Shown here piece after piece: positions 1,767 through 29,760 of a stretch of DNA of 64,000 bases; position 1 is the stretch's first letter; each line of letters starts with the position of its first letter. The translations under genes and the position numbers were made by a program. This DNA is from Hyphomicrobiales bacterium (lineage in GTDB: Bacteria > Pseudomonadota > Alphaproteobacteria > Rhizobiales > OSC116), in assembly GCA_013214705.1 (NCBI GenBank), contig JABSRZ010000005.1, positions 124,001-188,000 on the forward strand. Direction: 5' to 3'. The notes beneath the pieces were generated by a model, which saw only the letters and a list, made by a program, of their open reading frames with translations, was not told where the DNA came from and searched no databases.

Positions 1767-2945
1767 ATGCAAGTCAAACAAAAATGGATTAACGTAGTAA
1801 TTGTAACTCCCGAAGGGGAAGTGAACAAAGATCTGTATGTTATAGGCGGCAGGATATCGGCGATCGAACACCCCGGAGCAGCGATCAGTTCGGACTGGAA
1901 AGTAATTGATGGCGGTGGCCAATTTCTATTCCCGGGAATGATAGATATTCTTCAACACGGATTTGACCTAAACTACTATAGCGAACCTACTGCTGGTTGT
2001 GTTGCGAGTAGCTCTGAATTGTTGCCCGCCCACGGTGTCACCGGTTTCTTACCTTCGATTTTATCGATGCCGCCCGGTAAAGCTGCAGGTGTATTGTCTG
2101 AATTGGCACAGCAATGTGATGAGGCCAAAGGGGCTAGAGCACTTGGTCTACATAGCGAGGGCCCTTGCTTTGGGGTTGCAGGCGCGCACAATCCAAAGAA
2201 TTTACAAGAACCGACGTTAGCACTTGCCGACGAATTACTAAATGCCGCAAATGGTAAGTTAAAAGCGGTGACCATTGCGCCGGAACTTAATGGTGCCGAA
2301 GCATTTATCAAGCATTTAAAACAATCCGGGACTTCCATCCATCTTGGCCACAGCGCTGCAATGGCAGAAAATATCTCGCGTTACGTATCTTGGGGGATTG
2401 ACGCTGTAACCCATATGTATGACGCTCTGCCAGGGCTTCCGCCCGATGGCAGTGGAGTGCATCTGCTCTCGTTGACTGACGCATTAATTGCAGAGCCAGA
2501 TTTACCACTTGGCATAATTTGTGATGGCATTCACGTTCATCCAAAGTTGGTCAAACTTTTGGCTCAACTTCAATCGTCGCGTGTCTTCCTTGAAACGGAC
2601 TCTGTCAAATATGCCGGACGCGGTGGTGCAAGATTTGAACCCTATCCCGGATACTGGGTAACAAGTGCCAAGGGAAAAGCTGTGCGAGACGACAATGGCG
2701 GGCTTTGCGGCTCCTCCCTGACGTCCCATGAGGCAATGTTAAACTATATGGATTTCACCGGCAGAGATCTGACACGCGCGGCAATAGCCAGCAGTTTAGT
2801 GCCTTCCCGCATTCTTGGCATGGAAGCCGATATAGGAAGTTTAGAAGTTGGTAAGCAGGCAGATTTCGTCATGCTAGACAAGAATACACTATCTGTTAAT
2901 GCTACCTATGTAAGCGGAAAACCTGTATATGAGCGTGTAGCATGA
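1767..2945 (+). CDS. nagA: N-acetylglucosamine-6-phosphate deacetylase
   Basis: A 392-residue amidohydrolase-superfamily protein of normal NagA length. It hydrolyses GlcNAc-6-P to GlcN-6-P and acetate in the cytoplasm. Family signatures run in order: FPGMIDI near residue 57, the metal/substrate segment HSEGPCF followed by GAHNP, GHSAA, THMYDAL, CDGIHVHP and the catalytic-Asp segment LETDSVKYAG. The C-terminus has GSLEVGKQADFVML, typical of the family. It starts a tight operon, with ATGA overlaps, of two ATC-hydrolase-like genes and a sialidase-like gene. With nanE and nanK at 15-16.6 kb it would complete ManNAc conversion to GlcN-6-P; nagB and nanA are not in the window. Confidence 0.92.
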   Translation: MQVKQKWINVVIVTPEGEVNKDLYVIGGRISAIEHPGAAISSDWKVIDGGGQFLFPGMIDILQHGFDLNYYSEPTAGCVASSSELLPAHGVTGFLPSILSMPPGKAAGVLSELAQQCDEAKGARALGLHSEGPCFGVAGAHNPKNLQEPTLALADELLNAANGKLKAVTIAPELNGAEAFIKHLKQSGTSIHLGHSAAMAENISRYVSWGIDAVTHMYDALPGLPPDGSGVHLLSLTDALIAEPDLPLGIICDGIHVHPKLVKLLAQLQSSRVFLETDSVKYAGRGGARFEPYPGYWVTSAKGKAVRDDNGGLCGSSLTSHEAMLNYMDFTGRDLTRAAIASSLVPSRILGMEADIGSLEVGKQADFVMLDKNTLSVNATYVSGKPVYERVA

Positions 2946-3403
2946 CTAAAAAAGATGACAGGCCCCTACGCTACAACGACGACGGAAACGTCCACATGGA
3001 TTTTCACGTGGCCACCAATACGACGATCGATTTCATCATCGAAAGGTTCGGCATGGAAGCCATGGACCAGATTTTTGAACGGGTTGGAAAGGATGTTTAC
3101 GCAAATCTTCGTGAACATCTGATGAATGGGAATTCAGCCGAACTGGTGAAACACTGGCGGCACTTCTTTGACCGAGAAAACGCGGAATACAGTATCGAAA
3201 TAACAGACGACGCAATCATCCTGATTGTTAACAAATGCACCGCGTATGAACATGTTCAAAAAACTGCCCCCAAAATTTCAAAATTCTTTTGCGATCAAAC
3301 GATAAAGACCAACGCAGCTTTGGCCGAAGGAACACCTTTCACGATAGATACTGAAATAACGGCACCTGGTTCGTGCCGCCAAATCATACGGAGACGGACA
3401 TGA
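2942..3403 (+). CDS. ATC-hydrolase-like protein, copy 1
   Basis: A 153-residue soluble protein translationally coupled to nagA (ATGA overlap). The C-terminal half has the pattern NKCTAYEHV, then KFFCDQTIKTN, then APGSCRQII. This resembles the L-2-amino-thiazoline-4-carboxylate hydrolase-like fold (PF14196) as I remember it; the assignment rests on pattern recognition and needs a profile search. The next gene has the same length class and cysteine layout, so the two look like diverged paralogues and may act as a heteromer. Placement between nagA and a sialidase-like gene implies a step in amino-sugar or sialoside use, but no reaction can be named. Confidence 0.6.
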   Translation: MTKKDDRPLRYNDDGNVHMDFHVATNTTIDFIIERFGMEAMDQIFERVGKDVYANLREHLMNGNSAELVKHWRHFFDRENAEYSIEITDDAIILIVNKCTAYEHVQKTAPKISKFFCDQTIKTNAALAEGTPFTIDTEITAPGSCRQIIRRRT

Positions 3404-3888
3404 TACCCAGCGACCATTTTACTCGTTTCTATAACGAGGTTTTCAAGTTTCTGGAAAAACAAGGTGAAGACGCCTTAAGGGCTTACTGGCTCGAAATTAG
3501 TAGGAATCAGAGCATGCTCACCTATGATTTATTTCAGCAAAAGGGGCTGGAAGGCATGTATGAGTATTGGGAAAATATCCGAATTGAAGAAAATTGCGAC
3601 ATGGATATGGATCTTCGTGAAGATCGTCTGGAGTTGAGGATGAATGTCTGTCCTAGCCTAAGTAAAGTGATGGACAATGACGCAGCCCCTATGGGCAGAT
3701 ATTGCGACCATTGTGCAGGATGGATTGGACCCATATTAGACAAGCTGGGGTATCACTTAGTTTACGATGTTATAGATAGACAACAACCCCAGTGCGTTAT
3801 GCGCATTTTCAAAGAAAAAGAAGCCGCGCTCGAGGCTGAAAAGCATGCTAAATTGCTGATGCGTTGGCACGGAAAACTAGAAGATTAA
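3400..3888 (+). CDS. ATC-hydrolase-like protein, copy 2
   Basis: A 162-residue protein. The ATG at 3400 overlaps the preceding stop as ATGA and follows a GGAG; an earlier in-frame ATG at 3373 lies inside the upstream gene and is less likely. Key segments are NVCPSLSKV, YCDHCAGWIGPIL and QPQCVMRIF, matching the spacing of NKC, FFC and GSC in copy 1. The C-terminal 25 residues are charged and helical. Proposed as the partner or a specialised duplicate of copy 1 in the PF14196-like family. The cysteine-rich YCDHC segment could be catalytic or metal-binding (inference). Confidence 0.6.
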   Translation: MIPSDHFTRFYNEVFKFLEKQGEDALRAYWLEISRNQSMLTYDLFQQKGLEGMYEYWENIRIEENCDMDMDLREDRLELRMNVCPSLSKVMDNDAAPMGRYCDHCAGWIGPILDKLGYHLVYDVIDRQQPQCVMRIFKEKEAALEAEKHAKLLMRWHGKLED

Positions 3889-3920: not shown

Positions 3921-5042
3921 ATGAAGATCAAGAATACCGGTTATATTAGTCGCGCCGAAGCAGGCACCAATCGGGCCTGCCTAACTTTTGGAACAGTCAC
4001 TCAAATATCAGACGGCACGCTTCTTGCGACCGCCCGCGCTGGAAATGACAAAGACTCAGATAATGAGCTTATTGAATTCTATCGGTCAATCGATGACGGT
4101 AACAACTGGGGAGCCGCAACGACACCATTTCGCGATGTTTTCGTCGATGGAAAGTTTGGAACTTTAAAACTTTGTTACCTAACTGAACTTGCACCTGACC
4201 ATATATTGGCAGCGGCAATGTGGGTTGATCGAGAAAGCTATCCAGGGAAACCGCTTTTCAACTCAAAAACCGAAGGATGTTTGCCAATGGCTATTTTGTT
4301 GGCCAGCTCATCGGATAAGGGTGAAACATGGACAGAGTGGCGTTGCGTGCAAATGCCTGACGAACTCGGTCCACCAAGTCTAACAAATCCAATTCTAAAG
4401 ATGCCTGATGGATCACTGGCAATGAGCATTGAAACCAACAAGCATTACGACGACTATTCCGCATGGGAACAAAAAGCAGTGTTTCTTTATTCTCACGACA
4501 TGGGGAAAAGTTGGTCTCTGCCGGTCATAGCGGCAGAAGATTCCGCCGCAAAAATTTTCAACTGGGATCTACGTTGTGGCGTCGGATCGGACGGTCGTGT
4601 CGCCAGCTTCGCCTGGACCTATGACACACTTACCGGAAAATACTTAAACATTCATCGGCGAATAAGCGGTAATGGCGGGCATTCTTGGGACGCTGCGACA
4701 GATCTTGGCTTTGCAGATCAGGCAGGACCACCCGCGATGCTGCCAGACGGACGTGTGGTTTTGGCTTGGGTTGATCGCTTCGAGGGACGGAATATCCGTG
4801 CGCGCATTGCACCAGCGATTGACGCACCGTTTGACGCGAATAGTGAGGTTGTTTTGTACAATCATGACGATTCAAAAATGGAAGGGACTGACAATCTTGG
4901 CGATCTACTTGTCGGCATGGAAATGTGGAGCTTTGGCCTTCCTTTTGCTACCGCCCTCAATAATGGAGACGTATTGGTAACATACTACGCTGGTGACCGG
5001 CGAAGTATGGGGTTGTATTACGCAAAATTATCGACCTTATAG
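3921..5042 (+). CDS. Sialidase-like BNR-repeat protein 1
   Basis: A 373-residue six-bladed beta-propeller protein of the sialidase superfamily (BNR_2 type). Four Asp-box repeats are visible: SIDDGNNWG, SSDKGETWT, SHDMGKSWS and the degenerate GNGGHSWD. There is no signal peptide, so it should act in the cytoplasm on an imported substrate, unlike typical secreted sialidases. The usual N-terminal RIP-type arginine segment appears as NRACLTFG, so true exo-sialidase chemistry is uncertain. GTG codons at 3906 and 3912 are alternative starts. It is the last gene of the nagA operon and converges with the MFS-HEAT gene. Confidence 0.75.
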   Translation: MKIKNTGYISRAEAGTNRACLTFGTVTQISDGTLLATARAGNDKDSDNELIEFYRSIDDGNNWGAATTPFRDVFVDGKFGTLKLCYLTELAPDHILAAAMWVDRESYPGKPLFNSKTEGCLPMAILLASSSDKGETWTEWRCVQMPDELGPPSLTNPILKMPDGSLAMSIETNKHYDDYSAWEQKAVFLYSHDMGKSWSLPVIAAEDSAAKIFNWDLRCGVGSDGRVASFAWTYDTLTGKYLNIHRRISGNGGHSWDAATDLGFADQAGPPAMLPDGRVVLAWVDRFEGRNIRARIAPAIDAPFDANSEVVLYNHDDSKMEGTDNLGDLLVGMEMWSFGLPFATALNNGDVLVTYYAGDRRSMGLYYAKLSTL

Positions 5043-5090: not shown

Positions 5091-7319
5091 TCAACCTTTT
5101 AAAATGCGCCGCAACACGACGGACAAAAACACCAAAAGTGCGGAATGGGGTTCGACGATTTCTTTGGTTATTTCCAGTACCTGCTCCGCTTCCAACGCGT
5201 CACGATGTGAATTACCTACTATTTTGGGACCTAATTGTTGGAGCGCTTGAAAAGCGGATCTGGCATCACCTTTAGCCAAGTCATCTGCAATATTTGGAAA
5301 CTTGCTAGCACTGGAGCCCACAATTCTATTGATCATCACATGCAATCTGAGCCCTGGATTTTTATTCTCCCGTTGCAATTCCTGTATAAACAACCCTTCA
5401 CAGCTCAATATTTTAGAAAGAGCAAGCAGAATTACTTTACAATTGGCGTCATCAATTACAGTTTTTTCTGGTATATCGAAACGACAATAATGTCGAACCA
5501 AAGAATTAAAACTTCGACGGTCCTGGAATTTTCCTACAGTAGACACCGCGGCCAACCAACAATTGATATCACTTTCGTTTTCTAACAGGTTTCGAATGTC
5601 CGCCAAATAGGTGTGATCTTTAATATCGCCAATTGCGCGGATAGCCCTAGCACGTAGCAATGGTTGTTCAGAATTTAGATACACCGCAATCTTTTTACTG
5701 CTACTTTTCGCGCCAATCCTCCCCAACGAAGTTATCGCGGCAAACTGCAATTCTAACATGTTCCCTGTGTCCAAACGGGCCTCCAAAGCTCTGACAATGA
5801 CGGGGCTCTTTGGCAGATGCCCCAGGGCAACGATGGCTTCATAACGCACATCAAAACTTGGGTCATCCAACGCATTCAACAGTTCTTCACGCGCCAACAA
5901 GCTCCCAGACCCGCCAAATTGGTGTGCGAGGTCGAGTCTCCGCTCTTCGGATAACCGCTGGCTATATCGGTGAATGCCCCACAACACCCCAATAGGGTTG
6001 CTGACGTAAAACTGTCGCACGAATTCTTTAAATCCAGTCGCGCCTTCTTCTTGTAAAAATGCATATGAGATAGTTGAAGCAACAATTGCGAGTGCACATA
6101 GCGCAAATAGTATTTCGTAACCCGCAGCGTTTACGCCTAATATTTGTAAATGATTATTTTGAAACCAGAAAATTAAGTAACCCGCACCAAAAGTAGCGAC
6201 ACCGCCAATAACACCGTCCATGCTGTAGGCTAATCCCATATAGCTTTCTTTGGCATCGCTAGGCACGTAATTTAGTAAATAGACGTTTCCCGCGGTAATG
6301 CTGGCGCCAAATAATATACCAAACCCCAAGAAAATAGCGCTAAGAACTGGCGTCGCCGCGAAGGCACCAACGGGTAGTATCACAACAAATAATAATGCCA
6401 CCTGCGCCACCTGCGCCACAATGCGAACGCCGCGCGAACCGTGGCGATCAACCAACCAACCGCCGCTATAACTTCCGATTGCACCTCCTATCAACGAAAT
6501 CGCAGTCATAAGAACCAACTGGCCCGCTGGCACACCAAATTTATCCTTGAAAAATAAAATCAAGAAAACGTTAATAATTACAAACACCAGATATTGTGTG
6601 CCGGTTGAAAATAAAAGGAGCAAAAAGTTTCGATCGCGCAGGGGCCTCAGTAGGCCGCGAAAGGATGCGACACCGCGCGTTTGAACCGCAATAGGACGCC
6701 CACCAGTAAGTTTTAGCAAGCTCATAGCGCCCGCAAGCCCTAGGAATATCGCAATCAAAAAAATTGGATAGAACCTGTCCAAACCGGTGCGACTGTCCAG
6801 CCAAAGTTTAGCAAAATAAGATGCAAATAAAGCGGCCGGCAAGACATATAACGATAGCTTTCCAAATACGCTGCCACGAATTGATCGTGGGATAATTTCT
6901 TGTGTCCATGGCACGAACGCAGCTTCGGCAATTGTTCGAGAAAGTGAAAATAATGCGATCGCCAGAAGCAAAATCCAAAACGCCGCGTCTGGATTTGAAT
7001 TAAAAACTGGTACCAACAAGAACAGTAAAATAAAAACGTAACGCCCACTATACGCTAATATCGAGATTTTCTTACTACCAAATTTGAGAATTACAGGCAA
7101 AAATACTATGCCAAATGCCTGGAAAAAGGGCATAATTCCACCTAAAATGCCAATTTGCTTCGATTCAAACCCCAATTCTGTAAGGTACAGTGTAAACGGT
7201 GCGCCTACTGCCAAAAGAAATGCCGTTCCAGTGAAAGTACTGAACAAATACAAAAATGGTAAACGGCGGATCTTATCGTAATCGGTTTCGGTGCTACCTG
7301 TTCGGGCTATATTTGACAT
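5091..7319 (-). CDS. MFS transporter fused to a C-terminal HEAT-repeat domain
   Basis: A 742-residue protein. Residues ~18-425 form a 12-helix major facilitator domain (for example the RHGSRGVR loop and GAIGSYSGGWLVD). Residues ~450-720 are soluble helical HEAT/armadillo-like repeats, seen as FDVRYEAIVALGHLPKSP, QFAAITSLGRIGAKSS and RARAIRAIGDIKDH. MFS proteins are normally ~400-450 residues, so the extra ~300 residues are unusual. The gene follows a sialidase-like gene by 27 bp and is probably the importer for the cluster substrate. The cytoplasmic HEAT array could dock the two signal-less sialidase-like enzymes or a regulator (inference). Confidence 0.85.
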   Translation of the reverse strand: MSNIARTGSTETDYDKIRRLPFLYLFSTFTGTAFLLAVGAPFTLYLTELGFESKQIGILGGIMPFFQAFGIVFLPVILKFGSKKISILAYSGRYVFILLFLLVPVFNSNPDAAFWILLLAIALFSLSRTIAEAAFVPWTQEIIPRSIRGSVFGKLSLYVLPAALFASYFAKLWLDSRTGLDRFYPIFLIAIFLGLAGAMSLLKLTGGRPIAVQTRGVASFRGLLRPLRDRNFLLLLFSTGTQYLVFVIINVFLILFFKDKFGVPAGQLVLMTAISLIGGAIGSYSGGWLVDRHGSRGVRIVAQVAQVALLFVVILPVGAFAATPVLSAIFLGFGILFGASITAGNVYLLNYVPSDAKESYMGLAYSMDGVIGGVATFGAGYLIFWFQNNHLQILGVNAAGYEILFALCALAIVASTISYAFLQEEGATGFKEFVRQFYVSNPIGVLWGIHRYSQRLSEERRLDLAHQFGGSGSLLAREELLNALDDPSFDVRYEAIVALGHLPKSPVIVRALEARLDTGNMLELQFAAITSLGRIGAKSSSKKIAVYLNSEQPLLRARAIRAIGDIKDHTYLADIRNLLENESDINCWLAAVSTVGKFQDRRSFNSLVRHYCRFDIPEKTVIDDANCKVILLALSKILSCEGLFIQELQRENKNPGLRLHVMINRIVGSSASKFPNIADDLAKGDARSAFQALQQLGPKIVGNSHRDALEAEQVLEITKEIVEPHSALLVFLSVVLRRILKG

Positions 7320-7346: not shown

Positions 7347-8429
7347 CTATAGTTCCAAGAAATACGCTTTAATAACGTGTTGACCGTCTTCAACTGCCCA
7401 GCAAGTTGCCAAAAACTCATGCTTACCAATCTGTAATAAGGCGGGTTGCCCGAATTTGAGACTCCCAAACTGTTTGCTAATGTTTTTTGTGTCACTCGCC
7501 ACGCTCGCTTCAGGTAATAGATTTATGCCTTGCTCGATTGAAATATGGTCTCCAGAAACATCAATTACGCGTATCCACAATCCGACCGGATATTCCCGAT
7601 GCGAATGGATGGTTAATAATTTTCCGTCCCCGAGCCAAATTAAATTCGACGCTTGCGCCAAAATATTTGTATCTACGGCGCCTCCAAACGAAGCGCCACC
7701 ATCGTTAGAAAAAACAAGGTAGTTGGTCAGGTTTTCTTGATTTTTTGTGTCATACGCCCAAAATATTATTGCGACATGGTCTGGATCCATCTCAACGATG
7801 CGGCATTCCCATGGAGCGATTTCACCATTTTCCGATCTGTAAAATTCTGACAATTTACCCCAGTTTTTACCGTTATCATCGCTATAAACAACCCAGCCAG
7901 AATGCCCATCCGAGCCAAGATGAAACGGTGCACATGCACAGAGAATCCGGCCCGAAGCAAGCTGGATGCAAGGCCCCGACATCTCTAGTTGCGCACCTTC
8001 AATATTAACCTTCAGAGGCGTCGCCCATGTTTGCCCATTATCGGTTGAGCGCGTCATCAAGTTGTTGAGCGGTAGTATTTCAAAGGTTTTTGGATCCACA
8101 ATCGGGGTCAAAGGATCGGGTCGTACAAACCCATATCCAGTCGCAAGCAATGTTCCATCTGCTAATACCAGCGGCTTCAAAGTTTCTGAAATCTCATGTG
8201 GCTCAAACTCGTGATCGTGCATCCGCCGCGGTGAACTCCAAGTGCGACCCCGATCAGAACTTTTACATACATACATTCGCTGGTCTGCTGAATCGAATGC
8301 TTGCCCAATCGCAAACATCGCCAAAAAATCTCCATTTGGAAGCAGAACAACGCCCGGAAATATGGCTTGGCGGCTAACCAATAGTGGGTCTGGGTTTTGA
8401 TATATTATAACTTGATCAATGCACTTCAT
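7347..8429 (-). CDS. Sialidase-like BNR-repeat protein 2
   Basis: A 360-residue beta-propeller protein of the sialidase superfamily. Asp boxes are SSDRGRTWS, STDNGQTWA, SDDNGKNWG and a weaker SNDGGASFG. It lacks a signal peptide, so it should be cytoplasmic. The N-terminal arginine segment reads SRQAIFPG, again not the standard RIP motif. It is distinct from the protein at 3921-5042, not a recent duplicate. It sits between the AraC regulator gene (16 bp upstream) and the MFS-HEAT transporter gene (27 bp downstream) and is probably co-transcribed with both. Confidence 0.78.
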   Translation of the reverse strand: MKCIDQVIIYQNPDPLLVSRQAIFPGVVLLPNGDFLAMFAIGQAFDSADQRMYVCKSSDRGRTWSSPRRMHDHEFEPHEISETLKPLVLADGTLLATGYGFVRPDPLTPIVDPKTFEILPLNNLMTRSTDNGQTWATPLKVNIEGAQLEMSGPCIQLASGRILCACAPFHLGSDGHSGWVVYSDDNGKNWGKLSEFYRSENGEIAPWECRIVEMDPDHVAIIFWAYDTKNQENLTNYLVFSNDGGASFGGAVDTNILAQASNLIWLGDGKLLTIHSHREYPVGLWIRVIDVSGDHISIEQGINLLPEASVASDTKNISKQFGSLKFGQPALLQIGKHEFLATCWAVEDGQHVIKAYFLEL

Positions 8430-8445
8430 TATTTAATCCATTATG

Positions 8446-9252
8446 TTAGGCAAAAGGTTTCGACCGACGACGGTATTCTCCCGGTGTAATTCCACGGTTT
8501 TTTTTGAACGAGGCGAAAAATGATTCAGTATGACGGTATCCAATTTTTTGGGAAATTTCCGCTAAAGTAAAGCCAGTTGTCGCCAACAATTCTTCGGCCT
8601 TCTTTAGCCGCAGTTCTCGCAAATAATCGCCAGCCGAAGTCTTCCACTTGGTGCGATGTAAAGTGCGAAACCTACTTTCGTTTATACTTGCGAGTGCGGC
8701 AACATCGCTTAACGTTCGTATGGAATTCAAATTTTCGGCCGCAGCTTCCCACGCTGTGTTCAACCTATCATGTGAGTTGGGCAACCGGTCTGAATACCAG
8801 TGTTCCTGAGAGCCGAATCCATCAATTATGGCGTGAAGCGCACGCTGCCGTCTTGGTATATCTTTTGGGTCATTTCGTTTCGCCAAAAACATTGCCAGTC
8901 CAACTTGATTTTGAATGTGAATGCGTTCGGTATCTCTGACACTTTGATATCCTGGCCTCATAAATTCTGCACCGCAATCGCCGTTATATTCAAAATGGCA
9001 AATGGAAACAGTGGCAAATGAGTCAACGGTTCGGCCACTGAATTCAGTATTTGGCATTATCAAGACGCCAGATGGGGCATTAAGCATCACGGTCGAATTC
9101 TTTTCGGTAAATTTCAATTCAACCCCTCCCTGATGAACCCAAAACAAATCGTGGAATGGCCAAGTCGTTGGCGCAATATTCATACGTCGATCTATTCGCC
9201 CATAAAGATGCGTTTTCAGTTCGAGCTCTTGAGTCACTATTTCAATATTCAT
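8446..9252 (-). CDS. AraC family transcriptional regulator 1
   Basis: A 268-residue protein. An N-terminal cupin-like sensor (~1-130; WPFHDLFWVHQGGVEL, APSGVLIMPNTEF) precedes a C-terminal double helix-turn-helix (~165-262; LSDVAALASINESRFRTLHR, then LAEISQKIGYRHTESFFASF and GITPGEYRR). It is a clear paralogue of the regulator at 16883-17662, sharing the motifs RxDRR, HQG and ICHF. It is divergent from the PhyH gene at 9370 and likely controls both that gene and the downstream sialidase/MFS genes. The sensor probably binds a sugar derivative. Confidence 0.9.
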   Translation of the reverse strand: MNIEIVTQELELKTHLYGRIDRRMNIAPTTWPFHDLFWVHQGGVELKFTEKNSTVMLNAPSGVLIMPNTEFSGRTVDSFATVSICHFEYNGDCGAEFMRPGYQSVRDTERIHIQNQVGLAMFLAKRNDPKDIPRRQRALHAIIDGFGSQEHWYSDRLPNSHDRLNTAWEAAAENLNSIRTLSDVAALASINESRFRTLHRTKWKTSAGDYLRELRLKKAEELLATTGFTLAEISQKIGYRHTESFFASFKKNRGITPGEYRRRSKPFA

Positions 9253-9369: not shown

Positions 9370-10149
9370 ATGCAGAAAACAAATTTACAAGCTGTATTGT
9401 GCAATGCGAAAACCGATTATGATCGCGATGGATACATCGCTAGATATTCACTAATTGGCCCCAGTGAAATGGTTGAAATCAATACCCAGCTTGACCAATT
9501 TATCTTGAATTGCGTCCCACAAATGAGCAATACGGAGGTATACTATGAAGAGAAAGGTAACTCCGGCAACATCAAACAAATGATGAATATGAATAAACAT
9601 AGTGCCTATTTTCGCGATTTAGTCGAAAATAGCGTGATGCGGGATTTGGCGGCTGAGCTTCTTGGTGAAAATGTTCGGGCTGTTAATGTAGAATATTTCA
9701 ACAAACCTCCAGGAATAGGCAAGCCAACACCTGCACACCAAGATGGTTATTTCTTCCATCTCACGCCGTCCAAAGCAGTCACTTGTTGGCTAGCTCTTGA
9801 GGATGTTGATGACGAAAATGGCTGCATCCACTATGTTAGGGGCTCGCACAAAGCCGAAGGTTTTCGACAGCACAGTCGTTCTAATATTTTAGGTTTTTCA
9901 CAAGGGATGACAGATTTTGGTACCGCGTTAGATAAAGACAATACTGTTTCTTTTCCTTGCGGCGCCGGCACACTTCTTGCTCATGATTCAAAAACCGTTC
10001 ATTGGGCAGGGGCAAACCAATCAAATACCAGATCGCGCCGCGCACTTGGATTTGTCTATTTTGCAGAAAGTGCTAAGCACGACAAGATTGCGAGCGACGC
10101 GTATCAGGCGAAACTTCATGCCGACCTTAGAGATGCTAAAAAAATCTAG
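9370..10149 (+). CDS. Phytanoyl-CoA dioxygenase (PhyH) family protein 1
   Basis: A 259-residue Fe(II)/2-oxoglutarate-dependent oxygenase. The iron triad is visible: His123 and Asp125 in PAHQDGYFFH, and His211 in KTVHWAGA, with arginines at 221-224 (RSRR) to bind 2-oxoglutarate. The ribosome site GGAGG sits 7 bases before the ATG. It is a close paralogue of the protein at 14138-14917, sharing YFNKPxGIGxPTP, DENGCIHYV and GFSQGxTDFGT. Family members hydroxylate or demethylate small molecules; the link to an AraC regulator and amino-sugar genes suggests action on a substituted sugar or amine (inference). Confidence 0.9.
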   Translation: MQKTNLQAVLCNAKTDYDRDGYIARYSLIGPSEMVEINTQLDQFILNCVPQMSNTEVYYEEKGNSGNIKQMMNMNKHSAYFRDLVENSVMRDLAAELLGENVRAVNVEYFNKPPGIGKPTPAHQDGYFFHLTPSKAVTCWLALEDVDDENGCIHYVRGSHKAEGFRQHSRSNILGFSQGMTDFGTALDKDNTVSFPCGAGTLLAHDSKTVHWAGANQSNTRSRRALGFVYFAESAKHDKIASDAYQAKLHADLRDAKKI

Positions 10150-14137: not shown

Positions 14138-14917
14138 TTAGATTTTATTCGAATTCTTAAGTTGCTCATCTAGGGTTTTTTGGTATATCTGTTTTGTGGC
14201 TACATCTAGTTTTGCACTCGCACCATAATAAATAAAACCTAAGGCACGCCGAGACCTTGTTAGAGATTTGTTAGCGCCTGCCCAGTGAATGGTTCTTGCA
14301 TGATGCATTAAAAATGTGCCGGCCTGACCTGGAAATGAAACTTCATTAGCAAGGTCATCTGCTGTTCCAAAATCGGTTATACCTTGCGAAAACCCAAGAA
14401 CTCCGGTTTGCCCATGTTTTCTAAATTCCTGTTTATTGTGAGAGCCATTAACATAGTGAATACAGCCATTTTCTTCGTCCACTTCTTCAAGAGCTAACCA
14501 ACCTGTTACCGCTTCACAGGGAGTTAAATGGAAATAATATCCATCTTGGTGCGGTGGAGTTGGCTGGCCAATTCCGGCAGGTTTATTGAAATATTGCATG
14601 TTAACGGCAACAACCTCATCTTGAAGCAATTCTTCAGCGATCTTCCTCGCAGGTCCGTTCATCATCATGTCTTTGAAATATTCGTCATATTCAAACATTT
14701 TTTGCAATTGTTTTAATGAGGATCTATCATTTTTGTCCTCAAAATAGACTTGCGCATCGGGCATCGTTGGAACAACATCTTTTATGAACCTTGCAACCTG
14801 AGTGTTTATCTCAGCCATTTCTGTGGAGTTGTAGAGCGGCTTAACACAAACATATCCGTCTTTTGTAAATTCATTCAAAAGATTCTGCGGTTTTGTTTTA
14901 TTTTCTATTTTCGGCAT
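14138..14917 (-). CDS. Phytanoyl-CoA dioxygenase (PhyH) family protein 2
   Basis: A 259-residue Fe(II)/2-oxoglutarate oxygenase, the same length as its paralogue at 9370-10149. The iron ligands lie in PPHQDGYYFH (His-x-Asp) and ARTIHWAGA (His), with LTRSRRALG supplying the 2-oxoglutarate arginine. The motifs YFNKPAGIGQPTP, EENGCIHYV and GFSQGITDFGT are shared with copy 1. A good ribosome site (AAGGAAA) precedes the ATG. It lies 140 bp after nanK, with an aldo/keto reductase gene directly behind it. Duplication of this enzyme beside two amino-sugar clusters suggests two related substituted substrates. Confidence 0.9.
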   Translation of the reverse strand: MPKIENKTKPQNLLNEFTKDGYVCVKPLYNSTEMAEINTQVARFIKDVVPTMPDAQVYFEDKNDRSSLKQLQKMFEYDEYFKDMMMNGPARKIAEELLQDEVVAVNMQYFNKPAGIGQPTPPHQDGYYFHLTPCEAVTGWLALEEVDEENGCIHYVNGSHNKQEFRKHGQTGVLGFSQGITDFGTADDLANEVSFPGQAGTFLMHHARTIHWAGANKSLTRSRRALGFIYYGASAKLDVATKQIYQKTLDEQLKNSNKI

Positions 14918-24165: not shown

Positions 24166-25188
24166 ATGAAAGCCTTAGTCATAGACAAAAAAAATCATAC
24201 CAAATTTTGCGACATTGATACGCCAAAAATAGCTGATGATGAAATTCTTATAGATGTGGATTATGTTGGCATATGCGGCAGTGATTTAAACACCTTTCGT
24301 GGCCTCAATCCATTGGTAACATTGCCACGTATCCCCGGGCACGAAATTGGCGGTGTAATTGCAAAAAAGGGCACAAATGTGCCAAACGAATTCAACCTAG
24401 GTGATAGAGCCATTGTTATACCCTATTCAACCTGCGGTAAATGTTCTTCATGCCTTTCTGGTAGGGTTAATGCTTGCAAGTTTAATCAAACATTAGGCGT
24501 GCAAAAAGATGGTGGCATGTGTTCACAAATTGCCGTTCATTACGACCGTTTAATTTTAAATAAATCATTGCGTTCAACTCATTTGGCTTTAGTAGAGCCG
24601 CTATCAGTCGGGTTTCATGCGGTTGCGCGCGGGCGTGTTAGTTCAAGTGATACAGTTGTTATATTGGGCGGTGGAATGATCGGCGTTGGCGCAATATTGG
24701 CCAGCTTAGCAGCGGGAGCCCGCGTTATTGTGTCTGAAGTCAGCACTGTTAAACATAAATTACTAAAAGAAATCGGGGTTGAGACCGTCATTAACCCACA
24801 AACAAGTGACCTTGAAAATGAGATAAAATTATTAACCGATGGTCATGGTGCAAATGTGGTGATTGAAGCCGTGGGTCTGCCTGAAACATTCGTCCAAGCC
24901 GTTGATTTAACCTGCTTCACAGGTCGTGTGGTTTATGTAGGCTATGCAAAGGACAATGTGAGCTACAACACTTCCTTATTCAATTTAAAAGAGTTGGATA
25001 TTATGGGTTCACGCAACGCCACGCGTGTAGATTTTGAAGCGGTGATAGAATTTTTGGAACATAATTCAGATCTCGCCAACAATCTAATATCTAAGATTTT
25101 TTCTTGGGCAGATGCCGATCAAGCATTTGATTATTGGGAGAAAAATCGAAATGAGACTTTTAAAATTATGGTCGATATGAAGGGGTGA
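24166..25188 (+). CDS. Zinc-dependent alcohol dehydrogenase, L-galactonate 5-dehydrogenase-like
   Basis: A 340-residue medium-chain dehydrogenase. Catalytic zinc ligands lie in VGICGSDLNTF and PGHEIGG; the structural zinc cysteines are in CGKCSSCLSGRVNAC; the NAD site is ILGGGMIGVGA. It aligns by eye with E. coli LgoD (YjjN), including the late MGSRNAT motif and the IPYSTC region. LgoD oxidises L-galactonate to D-tagaturonate. It is the first gene of a run of seven co-directional genes (dehydrogenase, SDR, regulator, lactonase, mutarotase, kinase, aldolase). Other sugar-acid dehydrogenases of this family are possible. Confidence 0.8.
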   Translation: MKALVIDKKNHTKFCDIDTPKIADDEILIDVDYVGICGSDLNTFRGLNPLVTLPRIPGHEIGGVIAKKGTNVPNEFNLGDRAIVIPYSTCGKCSSCLSGRVNACKFNQTLGVQKDGGMCSQIAVHYDRLILNKSLRSTHLALVEPLSVGFHAVARGRVSSSDTVVILGGGMIGVGAILASLAAGARVIVSEVSTVKHKLLKEIGVETVINPQTSDLENEIKLLTDGHGANVVIEAVGLPETFVQAVDLTCFTGRVVYVGYAKDNVSYNTSLFNLKELDIMGSRNATRVDFEAVIEFLEHNSDLANNLISKIFSWADADQAFDYWEKNRNETFKIMVDMKG

Positions 25189-25193
25189 ATTTT

Positions 25194-25964
25194 ATGAAAC
25201 AATTGGGCGATATATACGGCCTAGCTGGCAAAACAGCTCTGGTTACAGGCGGTGGAACTGGCATAGGTCTGGCCATTGCAAAATGTCTTGCAGACAGCGG
25301 TGCAAAGGTAGTTATTGCTGGGCGTCGAGAAAACATATTGGCAAAATCTAGCGATGAAATTGGCAATAATTGCCAGTATTTGAAGTTGGATTTGCAAAAT
25401 ATAGATAGCATAAAGTCATTTGAAGAAGAAGTTAATAACCAATTTGGCTCAATAGATATTTTGGTCAATAATGCAGGCAATACATTAAAAAAACCATTTG
25501 AAGAGTCTAACTTAGATGAGTTTGACAACATATTTGATGTGCATGTCAGAGGGGCGTTAGAGCTTAGTCGTGCCGTTGTGAAAAGGATGTTGGCTAACAA
25601 CCAAATTGGTTCGATATTATTCATCTCATCGATGACGGCATATATTGGCCAGCCAAATGTATCTGGCTACACAATTTCTAAAACCGCAATAAATGGCGTA
25701 ATTAGAGGCCTGTCCGCTGAGTTTGCAGGGCGCGGAATACGATTTAATGGGGTTGCTCCGGGCTGGATTGATACCGAGCTATATAGAAACGCCACAAAAG
25801 GCGACTTGGCGCGCCAGACTAAAATTTTGAGCCGCATACCGATGGGTAGTTTGGGTGAACCAGAAGATATTGGTTGGACCTGTGCTTTTTTGGCCTCTCC
25901 AGCCGCAAAATATATTACCGGACAAGTAATATTGGTTGATGGCGGCGGCGCAACTGGATTTTAA
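25194..25964 (+). CDS. SDR family oxidoreductase (sugar-acid type)
   Basis: A 256-residue short-chain dehydrogenase similar to gluconate 5-dehydrogenases. Motifs are TGGGTGIG, NNAG, the SSMTAYIG Ser and the YTISK Tyr/Lys, with PGWIDTE. The ATG at 25194 sits 8 bases behind AGGGG; a GTG at 25185 that overlaps the previous stop is the alternative. In the pathway proposed here it would interconvert keto- and hydroxy-hexonates, for example tagaturonate to altronate, a step usually done by UxaB, which is absent. That role is inference. Confidence 0.83.
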   Translation: MKQLGDIYGLAGKTALVTGGGTGIGLAIAKCLADSGAKVVIAGRRENILAKSSDEIGNNCQYLKLDLQNIDSIKSFEEEVNNQFGSIDILVNNAGNTLKKPFEESNLDEFDNIFDVHVRGALELSRAVVKRMLANNQIGSILFISSMTAYIGQPNVSGYTISKTAINGVIRGLSAEFAGRGIRFNGVAPGWIDTELYRNATKGDLARQTKILSRIPMGSLGEPEDIGWTCAFLASPAAKYITGQVILVDGGGATGF

Positions 25965-26082
25965 GACGAGATTTTATAATGACCAAGCGGTTTGTTGCCG
26001 GTCAGGAATCCCTTAAAAATTTTGGCATGATGTAAGAAAACCTGTTATAAATCAAGAGAACGCAATATATTGAGGGTGAATA

Positions 26083-26985
26083 ATGTCTCGTGATAATTCC
26101 ATGTATAAGGAGATTTTTAATCTTGGCCTAGACTATGTTAAAAGTCTGGGCATTGATTCTTTGTTGCCCTCAGAGGTTGAATTATCAAAAAAGTGGAAAA
26201 TAAGCAGAACAACAGTCCGCGCTGTGTTAACCCATCTGGTTGAAAATGACATAATTAGTTGGCAAGGCCGAAAAAAAAACATACTCCGTTTGCCCAAGAA
26301 AACTGACTATTTTGCACATGCAGAAACCATTTCAAAAAGCGAAACAGTCGAAACACAATTTATGGAATATATTTTGGGTGGCGACTTAAAACCCGGAGCA
26401 ATTATACGCGAGAGCGAGCTTGTGCGAGAGTTTGGAGCGAGCACCTCCGTAGTGCGTGAATTTTTGAATTTATTTTCACGTTTCGGCCTGATAGAAAAAA
26501 AACCAAATAGGCATTGGGTGTTGCGCGGTTTCACCAGAGAATTCGCGGTTGAATTGTTTGACATGCGTGAAATGTTCGAGGATCGAGCACTCAAAAATTT
26601 ACTCTCACAAGATTCGACTAGCAAATTACATCAAAACTTACTCGACTTGGAAAAAGATCATCTAAAAATTATCGATGATATAGAAACAGAATATTTGAAT
26701 TTTCCTCGGCTAGATGAGCGCTTCCATCGCGTGATCGTATCGGATCTTAAGAACCGATTTATAGATGACTTTTTTGAACTGGTGTCGGTAATTTTTCACT
26801 ATCATTATCGGTGGAACAAGCGAGATGAGAAAGAGCGTAATTTTAACGCTGCTCATCAGCATTTGGCCATAATTCAAGCCGTAAAAGCCGATGATCACGA
26901 GAAAATTATCTCTACTTTTGAGCATCACATTGCAGATGCAAGACTTACGTTACTAAATTCAATAGCATGGGATAACAAAGAGTGA
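26083..26985 (+). CDS. GntR/FCD regulator with two winged-helix domains
   Basis: A 300-residue regulator with an unusual layout. A first GntR-type winged helix occupies ~5-70 (LLPSEVELSKKWKISRTTVR, ENDIISWQGRKKN). A second lies at ~88-150 (LKPGAIIRESELVREFGAST, SVVREFLNLFSRFGLI, RHWVLRGF). An all-helical FCD ligand domain fills ~155-295 (FDMREMFEDRAL, DERFHRVIV, HQHLAIIQAV, FEHHIADAR). Standard members have only one winged helix. It is embedded in the catabolic run and overlaps the lactonase gene as GTGA. It presumably represses the island in response to a sugar acid. Confidence 0.85.
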   Translation: MSRDNSMYKEIFNLGLDYVKSLGIDSLLPSEVELSKKWKISRTTVRAVLTHLVENDIISWQGRKKNILRLPKKTDYFAHAETISKSETVETQFMEYILGGDLKPGAIIRESELVREFGASTSVVREFLNLFSRFGLIEKKPNRHWVLRGFTREFAVELFDMREMFEDRALKNLLSQDSTSKLHQNLLDLEKDHLKIIDDIETEYLNFPRLDERFHRVIVSDLKNRFIDDFFELVSVIFHYHYRWNKRDEKERNFNAAHQHLAIIQAVKADDHEKIISTFEHHIADARLTLLNSIAWDNKE

Positions 26986-27818
26986 TTGTAGATGCTCATC
27001 AACATTTTTGGCGCATCGATAGAGGTGTGTATGATTGGATTGACGATTCCATTCCAGCACTTCGGCGCGATTATATGCCCGAGCATCTACAAGCCCACCT
27101 TAAGCTAAATAATGTCAGTAAAACAATTCTAGTTCAGGCTTCTGAAACGGACGAAGAAAATATTTTTTTGATTTCTTTGGCGCAAAATTTTGATTTTGTT
27201 GGCGGAATAATCGCTTGGGTAGATTTAGATGCACCCGGTGCAATTAGCATATTACAAGATTTGGCAAAAAATCCGCTCATTAAAGGAATTCGCCCGGTGT
27301 TGCAGGCTATTGAAGATAGTCACTGGATATTGAAAGACAATGTGATGGCATGTTTGCGAGAATTGCCAAAACTCGGTTTAAGATTTGATGCTTTGATACA
27401 GGCTCGCCATATTGGTGCAATTGTCACTCTGGCTCAAAAAATTCCAGAATTAAATATTGTTATTGATCATGCGAGTAAACCAAGCTTTAAAAATGGAATT
27501 GGCATCGCCCCAGTTTGGCGTGATCAAATAAAGCAGTTTGCGGATCTACCACAAGTCTATTGTAAAATGTCAGGATTAATAACCGAATATGGTGCCGGTT
27601 GGTCGGTTAATTCTTTGCAGTCTGTTGTCGATCATATTTTGGATGTTTTTTCGCCTTCTCGGATAATGTGGGGCAGCGATTGGCCGGTATTAGAACTAGA
27701 TGCTACATATTCTGAGTGGTTTGAAAGCACACAGAAACTCATTAAAAAATGTTCGCCGGCTGATAAAGAAGAGATAATGGGCGGAACCGCAAGCAGATTT
27801 TACGGGTTGAATGAGTGA
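26982..27818 (+). CDS. Amidohydrolase-2 family sugar lactonase
   Basis: A 278-residue TIM-barrel hydrolase like L-fucono- and L-galactono-1,5-lactonases. Metal-site motifs are VDAHQHFW at residue 3, VIDHASKP and MWGSDWPV. It starts with GTG, overlapping the regulator stop by 4 bases (GTGA). It would open the lactone made by the aldose dehydrogenase at 18600-19571. Close relatives act on L-galactono-, L-fucono- or L-rhamnono-lactones, so this gene alone does not settle the sugar. Confidence 0.85.
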   Translation: MIVDAHQHFWRIDRGVYDWIDDSIPALRRDYMPEHLQAHLKLNNVSKTILVQASETDEENIFLISLAQNFDFVGGIIAWVDLDAPGAISILQDLAKNPLIKGIRPVLQAIEDSHWILKDNVMACLRELPKLGLRFDALIQARHIGAIVTLAQKIPELNIVIDHASKPSFKNGIGIAPVWRDQIKQFADLPQVYCKMSGLITEYGAGWSVNSLQSVVDHILDVFSPSRIMWGSDWPVLELDATYSEWFESTQKLIKKCSPADKEEIMGGTASRFYGLNE

Positions 27819-27866
27819 GCGGACTTTTGGATATTAATTGAATTTCATGAAGCAAAAGGCAGTAAA

Positions 27867-28196
27867 ATGAAGAGATATGCGTCAATCATTGGCATTAACG
27901 AGAATGATATTGCGGAATATAAGCGTTTGCATGCAAATGTGTGGCCGGAAATATTAGATAGGTTGAGCAAAAGCAATATAACCAATTATTCAATATTTTT
28001 GAAACAGCCTGAGAATTTATTATTTAGCTATTACGAATATTTGGGTACAGATCATAAATCAGACCAAGACGCCATCGCAAAGGATACAAAAACCCAAAAG
28101 TGGTGGGCAATTTGTGGCCCCAAGCAAAATGCGTTGGCAAGCCGTGCCGAAGGTGAATGGTGGGCTAGTCTGGAAGAGGTGTTCCATTTAGATTAA
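27867..28196 (+). CDS. L-rhamnose mutarotase family protein (RhaM/L-fucose mutarotase type)
   Basis: A 109-residue small alpha/beta-barrel protein of the RhaM family. Conserved points are YKRLHANVWPEI (catalytic His), NYSIFL (Tyr) and KWWAICGPKQ. It interconverts alpha and beta anomers of a 6-carbon L-sugar, giving the aldose dehydrogenase the right anomer. This favours an L-configured sugar as the pathway substrate. It lies 48 bp after the lactonase gene. Confidence 0.88.
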   Translation: MKRYASIIGINENDIAEYKRLHANVWPEILDRLSKSNITNYSIFLKQPENLLFSYYEYLGTDHKSDQDAIAKDTKTQKWWAICGPKQNALASRAEGEWWASLEEVFHLD

Positions 28197-28243
28197 AATT
28201 CGACAATATGTTTATTTAAATAAGATTAGCGGTTAGGGCAGCA

Positions 28244-29131
28244 ATGGTTAAATTACTTTGCATAGGTGAAATTATGCTTGAGTTTTCGCAAATTTCAGAA
28301 AATTTATACCGAAAAAGCTTCGCCGGCGATACATTTAACGTCGCACATTATGCATCAATTGTCGGCGGTTCAAGTGTAGAAGTTGATTACTTAACGGCAA
28401 TCGGCACAGATGAGAATAGTGATCAATGCCAAAGCTTTATTGAACGTAATAAAGTAGGGGTTAAGAAAATTCACCGAGACGAAATACACTCTATAGGCTT
28501 GTTCAATCTCTCCAATAATGATGCCGGCGAGAAGCGATATACCTATTGGCGAAGTGATTCAGCAGCCAGACATTTATTTGAGCAAAAAATAGATTTATCT
28601 GGTTATGATTTTGTATATATCTCGGGCATAACAGCAGCAATAACCATTCATAAAACTAATCTTATTGATGCTTTGCTGAAAGCCAAAAACAAGGGGGCTA
28701 AAATTGTTTTTGATTTCAATTATCGGCCTCAATTATGGGCTGCAGACGAAGCCAAGGAATTTTCGCTAAAACTATTACCCTTGGTGGATATCCTCAAAAT
28801 TTCGGATGAGGAATTTGAAATATTATTTCCTTGCAAAACGATGTCTGATTTTTCTCGCGAAAACCATGAAGCAGAACTGATATTCACTTGTGGTGGACAA
28901 AAAGCAGAAGTCTGGCAAGCAGGCAATTTATTGGCGCAAGAGTTTTTCGAAGCTTCAACGAAGGTTATAGATAGCAGTGCAGCCGGAGATAGCTTTTTGG
29001 GAGCTTACTTGGCATCATATTCAAAATTTGATGCATCACAGCGGCTTAAGCGCGCTCATAGAATTGCAGTGCAGGTAATTGCGCATAAAGGCTCAATTGC
29101 ACCTATAGACATTAAAAAATTGGAGATATAA
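28244..29131 (+). CDS. 2-keto-3-deoxygluconate kinase (PfkB family)
   Basis: A 295-residue ribokinase-fold sugar kinase. The N-terminal GEIMLEFSQ and FAGDTFNVAHYAS and the C-terminal anion-hole/catalytic motif DSSAAGDSFLGAYLA are typical of KDG kinases. It would phosphorylate KDG from the altronate dehydratase to KDPG. The aldolase gene starts 2 bp after its stop, reinforcing this assignment. Confidence 0.9.
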   Translation: MVKLLCIGEIMLEFSQISENLYRKSFAGDTFNVAHYASIVGGSSVEVDYLTAIGTDENSDQCQSFIERNKVGVKKIHRDEIHSIGLFNLSNNDAGEKRYTYWRSDSAARHLFEQKIDLSGYDFVYISGITAAITIHKTNLIDALLKAKNKGAKIVFDFNYRPQLWAADEAKEFSLKLLPLVDILKISDEEFEILFPCKTMSDFSRENHEAELIFTCGGQKAEVWQAGNLLAQEFFEASTKVIDSSAAGDSFLGAYLASYSKFDASQRLKRAHRIAVQVIAHKGSIAPIDIKKLEI

Positions 29132-29133
29132 AT

Positions 29134-29760
29134 ATGCAAGATATTTTTACTAAAATTGCACAAATGCCACTAATAGCTATTTTAAGGGGCATAGAACCCC
29201 AAGAGGCAGGTGGGGTTTCCACCGCCTTAGTTAACGGTGGGATAAAGTTTATGGAAGTCACTCTAAACAGCCCAGACTGGCAATCAAGTTTAGAAATCAT
29301 GAATGACAAGCATGGCGATGAAATTATACTAGGTGCCGGTACAGTGATACAGGTCGAACAGGTTGAGAGATTGGCCGACATAGGCGTTAAAGTTATTATT
29401 TCTCCAAATATGGATGCTGATATAATCAAAGCAACTAAAGCGCGCGGCATGTTGTCGATGCCGGGTTGCTATACCCCAAGTGAGTGTTTTCAAGCGCTTA
29501 AATTTGGTGCAGATATTTTAAAAATATTCCCTGCAGACAATTTGGGGGTGTCACATATAAATGCACTACAAGCTGTGTTACCAAAGGGCACCAGAATTTG
29601 CCCAACAGGTGGTGTTAGCCTTAGTAATATGCAGAGTTTCCAAAAGGCGGGAGTATTTGCAATGGGCATGGGTTCTGCACTTTACAAACCTAAAAAACCC
29701 ACAGAGGAAGTTGAAGAAGCTGCCAAACAATTTGTTTCGGCATATCAATCGGCACTATAA
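29134..29760 (+). CDS. KDPG/KDPGal aldolase
   Basis: A 208-residue class I aldolase that splits KDPG into pyruvate and glyceraldehyde-3-phosphate. The general-base segment FMEVTLNS, the site ISPNMDADII, MPGCYTPSE and the Schiff-base lysine in ILKIFPADNLG are all present, as is PTGGVS. It is the last gene of the island. A DgoA-type preference for the galacto isomer cannot be excluded. Confidence 0.93.
   Translation: MQDIFTKIAQMPLIAILRGIEPQEAGGVSTALVNGGIKFMEVTLNSPDWQSSLEIMNDKHGDEIILGAGTVIQVEQVERLADIGVKVIISPNMDADIIKATKARGMLSMPGCYTPSECFQALKFGADILKIFPADNLGVSHINALQAVLPKGTRICPTGGVSLSNMQSFQKAGVFAMGMGSALYKPKKPTEEVEEAAKQFVSAYQSAL

Follow-up and report, generated by a model that had tools for sequence, protein, structure and literature searches.

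Here we describe a pair of adjacent genes, hereafter A and B, that recurs as a unit in distant bacterial lineages, in most cases together with an aldolase of the pyruvate-dependent type. To judge from sequence and gene context, the two products would form an obligate heteromer in which B holds a cysteine-ligated centre and which acts one step before that aldolase, a reading to which we give a probability of about one in two. The genes lie in a stretch of 64,000 nucleotides, the whole of which is called here the window (Table 1).

A, B and the upstream nagA-like gene are chained to one another by ATGA overlaps, in agreement with a first-pass annotation of this DNA, which had described two adjacent overlapping genes coupled to nagA, and both A and B are intact open reading frames. 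The listing of open reading frames gives an alternative GTG start for B at 3373, which is less likely than the ATG at 3400 because relatives begin with MIPSDHF at that ATG. Among the best 80 of 120 loci retained in the scan for relatives, dozens from Alphaproteobacteria match B over almost its whole length, at 61–77% identity, and those from Lentisphaeria, Phycisphaerae and a spirochaete match it at 52–64%. From these sequence features, it is certain that A and B are real coding genes.

Table 1. Features of the window around the A–B pair
Feature	Position	Strand	Remarks
SDR oxidoreductase, divergent from nagA	941–1702	−	conserved in at least 55 of 59 alphaproteobacterial loci
NagA-like amidohydrolase	1767–2945	+	metal/catalytic residues E, H, H, D kept; Asp for Asn, no Arg
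nagA-like stop / A start overlap (ATGA)	2942–2945	+	translational coupling
Gene A	2942–3403	+	153 aa; predicted PF14196/V4R-like fold; C99, C117, C145; H18-x-D20-F21-H22 motif
A stop / B start overlap (ATGA)	3400–3403	+	identical 4-bp overlap in 70 of 82 loci
Gene B	3400–3888	+	162 aa from ATG 3400; predicted fold as A; C66, C84-P-S, C102-x-H104-C105, C132
BNR1, Asp-box propeller	3921–5042	+	BNR_2 below Pfam cut-off only
MFS transporter fused to HEAT repeats	5091–7319	−	
BNR2, BNR_2 Asp-box propeller	7347–8429	−	over Pfam cut-off; distant to sialidases
AraC-type regulator of cluster	8446–9252	−	

The association between the two genes is strict. In all 82 loci having both of them A lies directly upstream of B, the 4-bp overlap being exact in 70, and these loci belong to Alphaproteobacteria (SAR11 included), Lentisphaeria, Phycisphaerae and one spirochaete. 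Moreover, in 16 whole genomes each A match is accompanied by a B match, and the pair is kept in a more diverged clade (clade 2). A search for solo genes found B alone within the stretch read at L144/L173 and L146/L163, where A has possibly diverged or was missed. The spread of the pair is nonetheless patchy: it is absent from 100 sampled relatives of the window, five of the same genus among them, and within the window's class it turned up in 2 of 385 genomes (the window's own included) and within its phylum in 1 of 398 (the window's own), against 28 of 240 in the phylum to which the Lentisphaeria locus L070 belongs. This pattern suggests horizontal transfer; no relative of B was found in the plasmid and viral collections.

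Two variations of the pair deserve mention. In five loci (L061, L064, L076, L077 and L137) the order is A-B-B, with B duplicated in tandem and A single. Furthermore, some Lentisphaeria-phylum genomes (L062/G483:C42, L132/G696:C31, L155/G639:C86) have B matches that cross one in-frame stop, near the C-terminus where looked at, which may represent a true end, a sequencing error or decay.

Profile-profile comparison (hhalign) of an alignment of 41 A sequences with one of 34 B sequences gave a probability of 93.5 and an E-value of 2.3e-7, and placed C99, C117 and C145 of A on C84, C102 and C132 of B; in whole genomes, the A HMM matched B down to E 6.3e-8 and the B HMM matched A at E 1.4e-7. Chance similarity is ruled out by these comparisons, and at the level of sequence A and B are paralogues rather than members of unrelated families. 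The likeness in length and cysteine layout pointed out in the first-pass annotation holds for the layout and only approximately for the length (153 versus 162 aa), and its list of B cysteines (NVC/YCDHC/PQC) was incomplete, as B also has C66 and C105, the latter within YCDHC. In a tree with PF14196 as outgroup, the B sequences of both clades stand together (support 1.0) and A of clade 1 is joined to clade 2a (0.94), while A of clade 2b has an uncertain position next to B (0.65); the duplication is therefore probably older than the split of the clades.

The two paralogues differ in what they conserve. In B, residues C84, C102, H104, C105 and C132 are invariant in every aligned sequence, so that C84-P-S, Y101-C102-x-H104-C105 and C132 are all kept in both clades; S4, D5, H6 and C66 are replaced in clade 2. 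In A the D20-F21 motif is kept, and C117 and C145 are missing in L061, L070, L074 and clade 2a, and C99 in L155 and L156. Into the idea of a cysteine-rich heteromer an asymmetry has therefore to be introduced, since the cysteines of A are dispensable: B would bear the metal or catalytic cysteines and A would be its partner.

The defining partner of the pair is a pyruvate aldolase, not nagA. In clade 1 outside the Alphaproteobacteria, such an aldolase occurs in 19 of 22 loci, being DHDPS/NanA-like in 18 and HpcH in the spirochaete. In 16 of those 18 the DHDPS gene is co-directional and no more than 60 bp from the pair, the distance being taken from one profile match to the next; eleven of these non-alphaproteobacterial genomes hold 2–9 DHDPS genes each, which makes a chance adjacency unlikely, with the proviso that these are related loci rather than independent cases. 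In Alphaproteobacteria the aldolase is of the HpcH/HpaI type, and in the clade-2 locus L164 an HpcH gene lies directly upstream of A. The gene order is aldolase-A-B-SDR-AKR in L070 and in L171, which belongs to clade 2, and A-B-aldolase-SDR-AKR in L083. The pair is hence no random neighbour: its invariant pairing goes with an aldolase and sugar-acid context, in catabolic clusters with BNR, NanA-like and NanM-like proteins, and the sialoside setting proposed beforehand is likely.

In the minimal operon the dehydrogenase, the aldolase and the aldo-keto reductase have assigned roles. Since A and B are its sole members without one, and since the step that yields a 2-oxo-3-deoxy acid is without an assigned enzyme, a dehydration or a hydrolytic ring opening before the aldolase is favoured. 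As the invariant adjacency and overlap suggest, A and B would each supply one subunit of an obligate heteromeric enzyme with the HNOB/V4R/ATC-hydrolase fold. Its chemical centre would be made up in B by C84, C102, C105 and C132, with H104, most simply around Zn and possibly around an Fe-S cluster, and A would be the paralogous partner completing either this site or the interface. Acting one step ahead of the DHDPS/NanA-type or HpcH/HpaI-type aldolase, the enzyme would take a sugar acid that probably originates from a sialic-acid-like or amino-sugar unit and turn this intermediate into the 2-oxo-3-deoxy acid for the aldolase to cleave. A sialic-acid-like sugar is a likely candidate, favoured by the NanM-, NanA- and BNR-like neighbours, but on inspection neither BNR protein of the window shows the sialidase R-I-P motif. 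Against a dehydration, islands of Alphaproteobacteria also contain a D-serine-dehydratase-like PLP enzyme and RidA, which could supply it, and for a true ulosonic acid as substrate (Neu5Ac-like) the pathway would require no dehydratase.

In the strongest alternative the pair would act on a sialic-acid-like ulosonate as ring-opening hydrolase or mutarotase (similar to NanM or NanQ, or opening a lactone, anhydro or oxazoline form) and pass it, once open, to a NanA-type lyase. A DHDPS/NanA-like lyase does adjoin the pair in most non-alphaproteobacterial loci, a NanM-like kelch protein adjoins B in three clade-2 loci (L162–L164) and BNR_2 proteins are near; the island of the window has, in the 20 kb upstream, a NanA that exceeds one NCBIfam cut-off (PRK04147, 290 versus 281 bits), and NanE and a NanK-like kinase downstream. 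Furthermore, ring opening is the reaction of the sole characterised PF14196 enzyme (PMC5847659). On the other side, the alphaproteobacterial combination of HpcH/HpaI with SDR, Gfo/Idh and PLP enzymes is no classical Neu5Ac route, the NanM-like gene of L164 stands alongside A and B and would then be redundant, and the pair-linked DHDPS proteins score far under the NanA cut-offs. We consider this alternative rather unlikely.

Concerning the fold, AF2 models of A and B (pLDDT 90.8 and 87.1) resemble best the TRAPP subunits (Bet3), BcsD, the V4R domains of PoxR and MopR, and H-NOX. The VIA lists contain TRAPP, BcsD, V4R (for B) and H-NOX, with Z up to 8.5–8.6 over about 125–136 aligned residues at 3.8–4.5 Å rmsd, and a Foldseek match for A reached E 6.4e-4; as a Z near 8 is modest by itself, it is the consistency of the fold class which leads us to conclude that, as modelled, both proteins have an HNOB/V4R/TRAPP-type fold. 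At the sequence level, Pfam and NCBIfam gave nothing useful for the single A and B of the window, neither of which matches PF14196 (ATC hydrolase) at E ≤ 1; this family surfaced from scanning the alignments member by member, with weak matches in 19 of 41 A relatives (E ≤ 0.5, best 2.9e-4) and in 2 of 34 B relatives (best 0.054). The curated cut-off of 28.1 bits is not reached, and we therefore claim a superfamily relation and not membership of the family. C99, C117 and C145 of A align with the cysteines of PF14196, although the last two are absent in some A lineages. The weakness of the A matches, together with the lack of a match between B and the PF14196 profile in hhalign (probability 0.1), counts against our preferred reading. 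A also matches MsvR weakly (E 0.006); weak matches of B to KARI_C, RNA_helicase_helical and AVR-Pik were judged to be chance, and PDB sequence searches returned nothing or chance matches, including designed repeat proteins. The genome carries, unlinked to A and B, a second and canonical PF14196 protein (123 bits; G000:C45:157337-157762, L103:1465-1944).

As the fold and the weak PF14196 matches of the A relatives indicate, the initial guess of an ATC-hydrolase-like family was right at the superfamily level. This superfamily is already known, because HNOB, V4R and ATC hydrolase have been related through their fold and a three-cysteine cluster (PMC5847659); the novelty thus likely lies in a paired subfamily whose enzymatic role is probably new, and not in a categorically new fold. 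No paper describing the pair was found in the literature, in line with what had been assumed, and the only one found to mention PF14196 reports one characterised enzyme of the family, a ring-opening one (PMC5847659). PF14196 ATC hydrolases resemble A and B in size, fold class and three-cysteine layout, and differ in that A and B form a constant paralogue pair in a sugar-acid rather than a thiazoline/cysteine context, which argues for a substrate other than 2-aminothiazoline-4-carboxylate. The archaeal MetOD1 domain, related to the same three families and with three conserved cysteines, belongs to sensor histidine kinases (PMC5847659), whereas A and B are paired stand-alone metabolic genes. Similarly, V4R (PF02830) and the sensor domains of MsvR, PoxR and MopR have the fold and the cysteine cluster in common with A and B, which stand alone without output domains. 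The spacing of the cysteines appears to differ from that of the MopR site. Finally, TRAPP Bet3/Trs33 form paralogous heterodimers with this fold, but they are eukaryotic trafficking proteins without a metabolic operon.

Such resemblances could also be taken to mean that A and B are a non-catalytic sensor, chaperone or scaffold, similar to V4R sensors, TRAPP or BcsD, that binds an intermediate or assembles the aldolase, given that the nearest solved folds (phenol sensors among them) are mostly non-enzymes and that paralogue pairs are typical of TRAPP. We find this improbable, since neither protein has an effector or DNA-binding domain, the polar and cysteine residues of B are strongly invariant, the operon with the aldolase is tight and the ATC-hydrolase branch is enzymatic.

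In turn, the survey does not support nagA as the defining partner: a nagA-like gene accompanies the pair in at least 54 of 59 alphaproteobacterial loci versus 1 of 22 others, the spirochaete. The remaining members of the alphaproteobacterial loci are SDR (at least 55), the D-serine-dehydratase-like PLP enzyme (48 or more), RidA (46 or more), BNR (at least 42), M81 (32 or more), and HpcH/HpaI and a second SDR (at least 31 each), all of them minimum counts because many of the loci are truncated. That A and B hydrolyse a cyclic or N-substituted amino-sugar intermediate tied directly to the NagA step, as first proposed, is thus very improbable: in spite of the translational coupling in the window and the alphaproteobacterial and spirochaete counts, 21 of the 22 other loci have no nagA next to the pair, and the gene is also missing in the Devosia-type L021, L025, L026 and L040, in which SDR-A-B persists.

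The window is itself taken from an alphaproteobacterial island of this kind, whose 20 kb upstream contain Gfo/Idh, SDR, HpcH, PLP enzyme and RidA genes and, by inspection, an Opp-type ABC transporter. The NagA-like protein scores 201.2 bits against the NagA equivalog TIGR00221, short of the cut-off of 225.65, and the Asn and Arg of E. coli NagA, taken to be its phosphate binders, are replaced. Moreover, no NagB-type (PF01182) gene was found in the genome, and this absence and the changed phosphate-site residues fit a non-phosphorylated route. The expression nagA-sialidase operon is loose, as inspection revealed neither the R-[IVL]-P sialidase motif nor an evident signal peptide in BNR1 or BNR2, and BNR1 falls under the BNR_2 cut-off.

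Returning to the heteromer acting before the aldolase, its most specific form is a new two-subunit sugar-acid dehydratase or ring-opening enzyme with an H-NOX/TRAPP-like fold and Zn or Fe-S in B, with which SAR11, roseobacters, Devosia and Lentisphaeria of the gut would degrade sialic-acid-like sugars by a non-phosphorylative route; so detailed a proposal is tentative, and we hold it to be doubtful as a whole. If true, a fold mainly associated with sensors (V4R, H-NOX) and vesicle-tethering proteins (TRAPP) would have become a two-subunit catabolic enzyme that abundant marine bacteria share with Lentisphaeria of the gut, and a missing step of a widespread sugar-acid pathway would be supplied. 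The aldolase-A-B-SDR-AKR operon, with five small proteins, makes this directly testable.

Some other features of the window and of its relatives are worth recording. The C-terminal HEAT repeats of the MFS transporter are an unusual fusion, and the transporter of relatives in marine single-cell genomes is shorter, with about 441 aa. PhyH-family genes occur near M81 metallopeptidase-family genes in the window (9370–10149, 14138–14917) and, two of them adjacent, in a marine relative (L020:13822-15362); 9370–10149 has a Pfam match and the other open reading frames are similar by eye. The same relative has two tandem genes (L020:12035-13725), of which the one scanned is a homologue of ketopantoate hydroxymethyltransferase (PanB) and the second is similar by eye. 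Finally, positions 24166–29760 of the window hold, by inspection, a further sugar-acid cluster with a zinc-type dehydrogenase, SDR, GntR, amidohydrolase, sugar kinase and KDPG-type aldolase.
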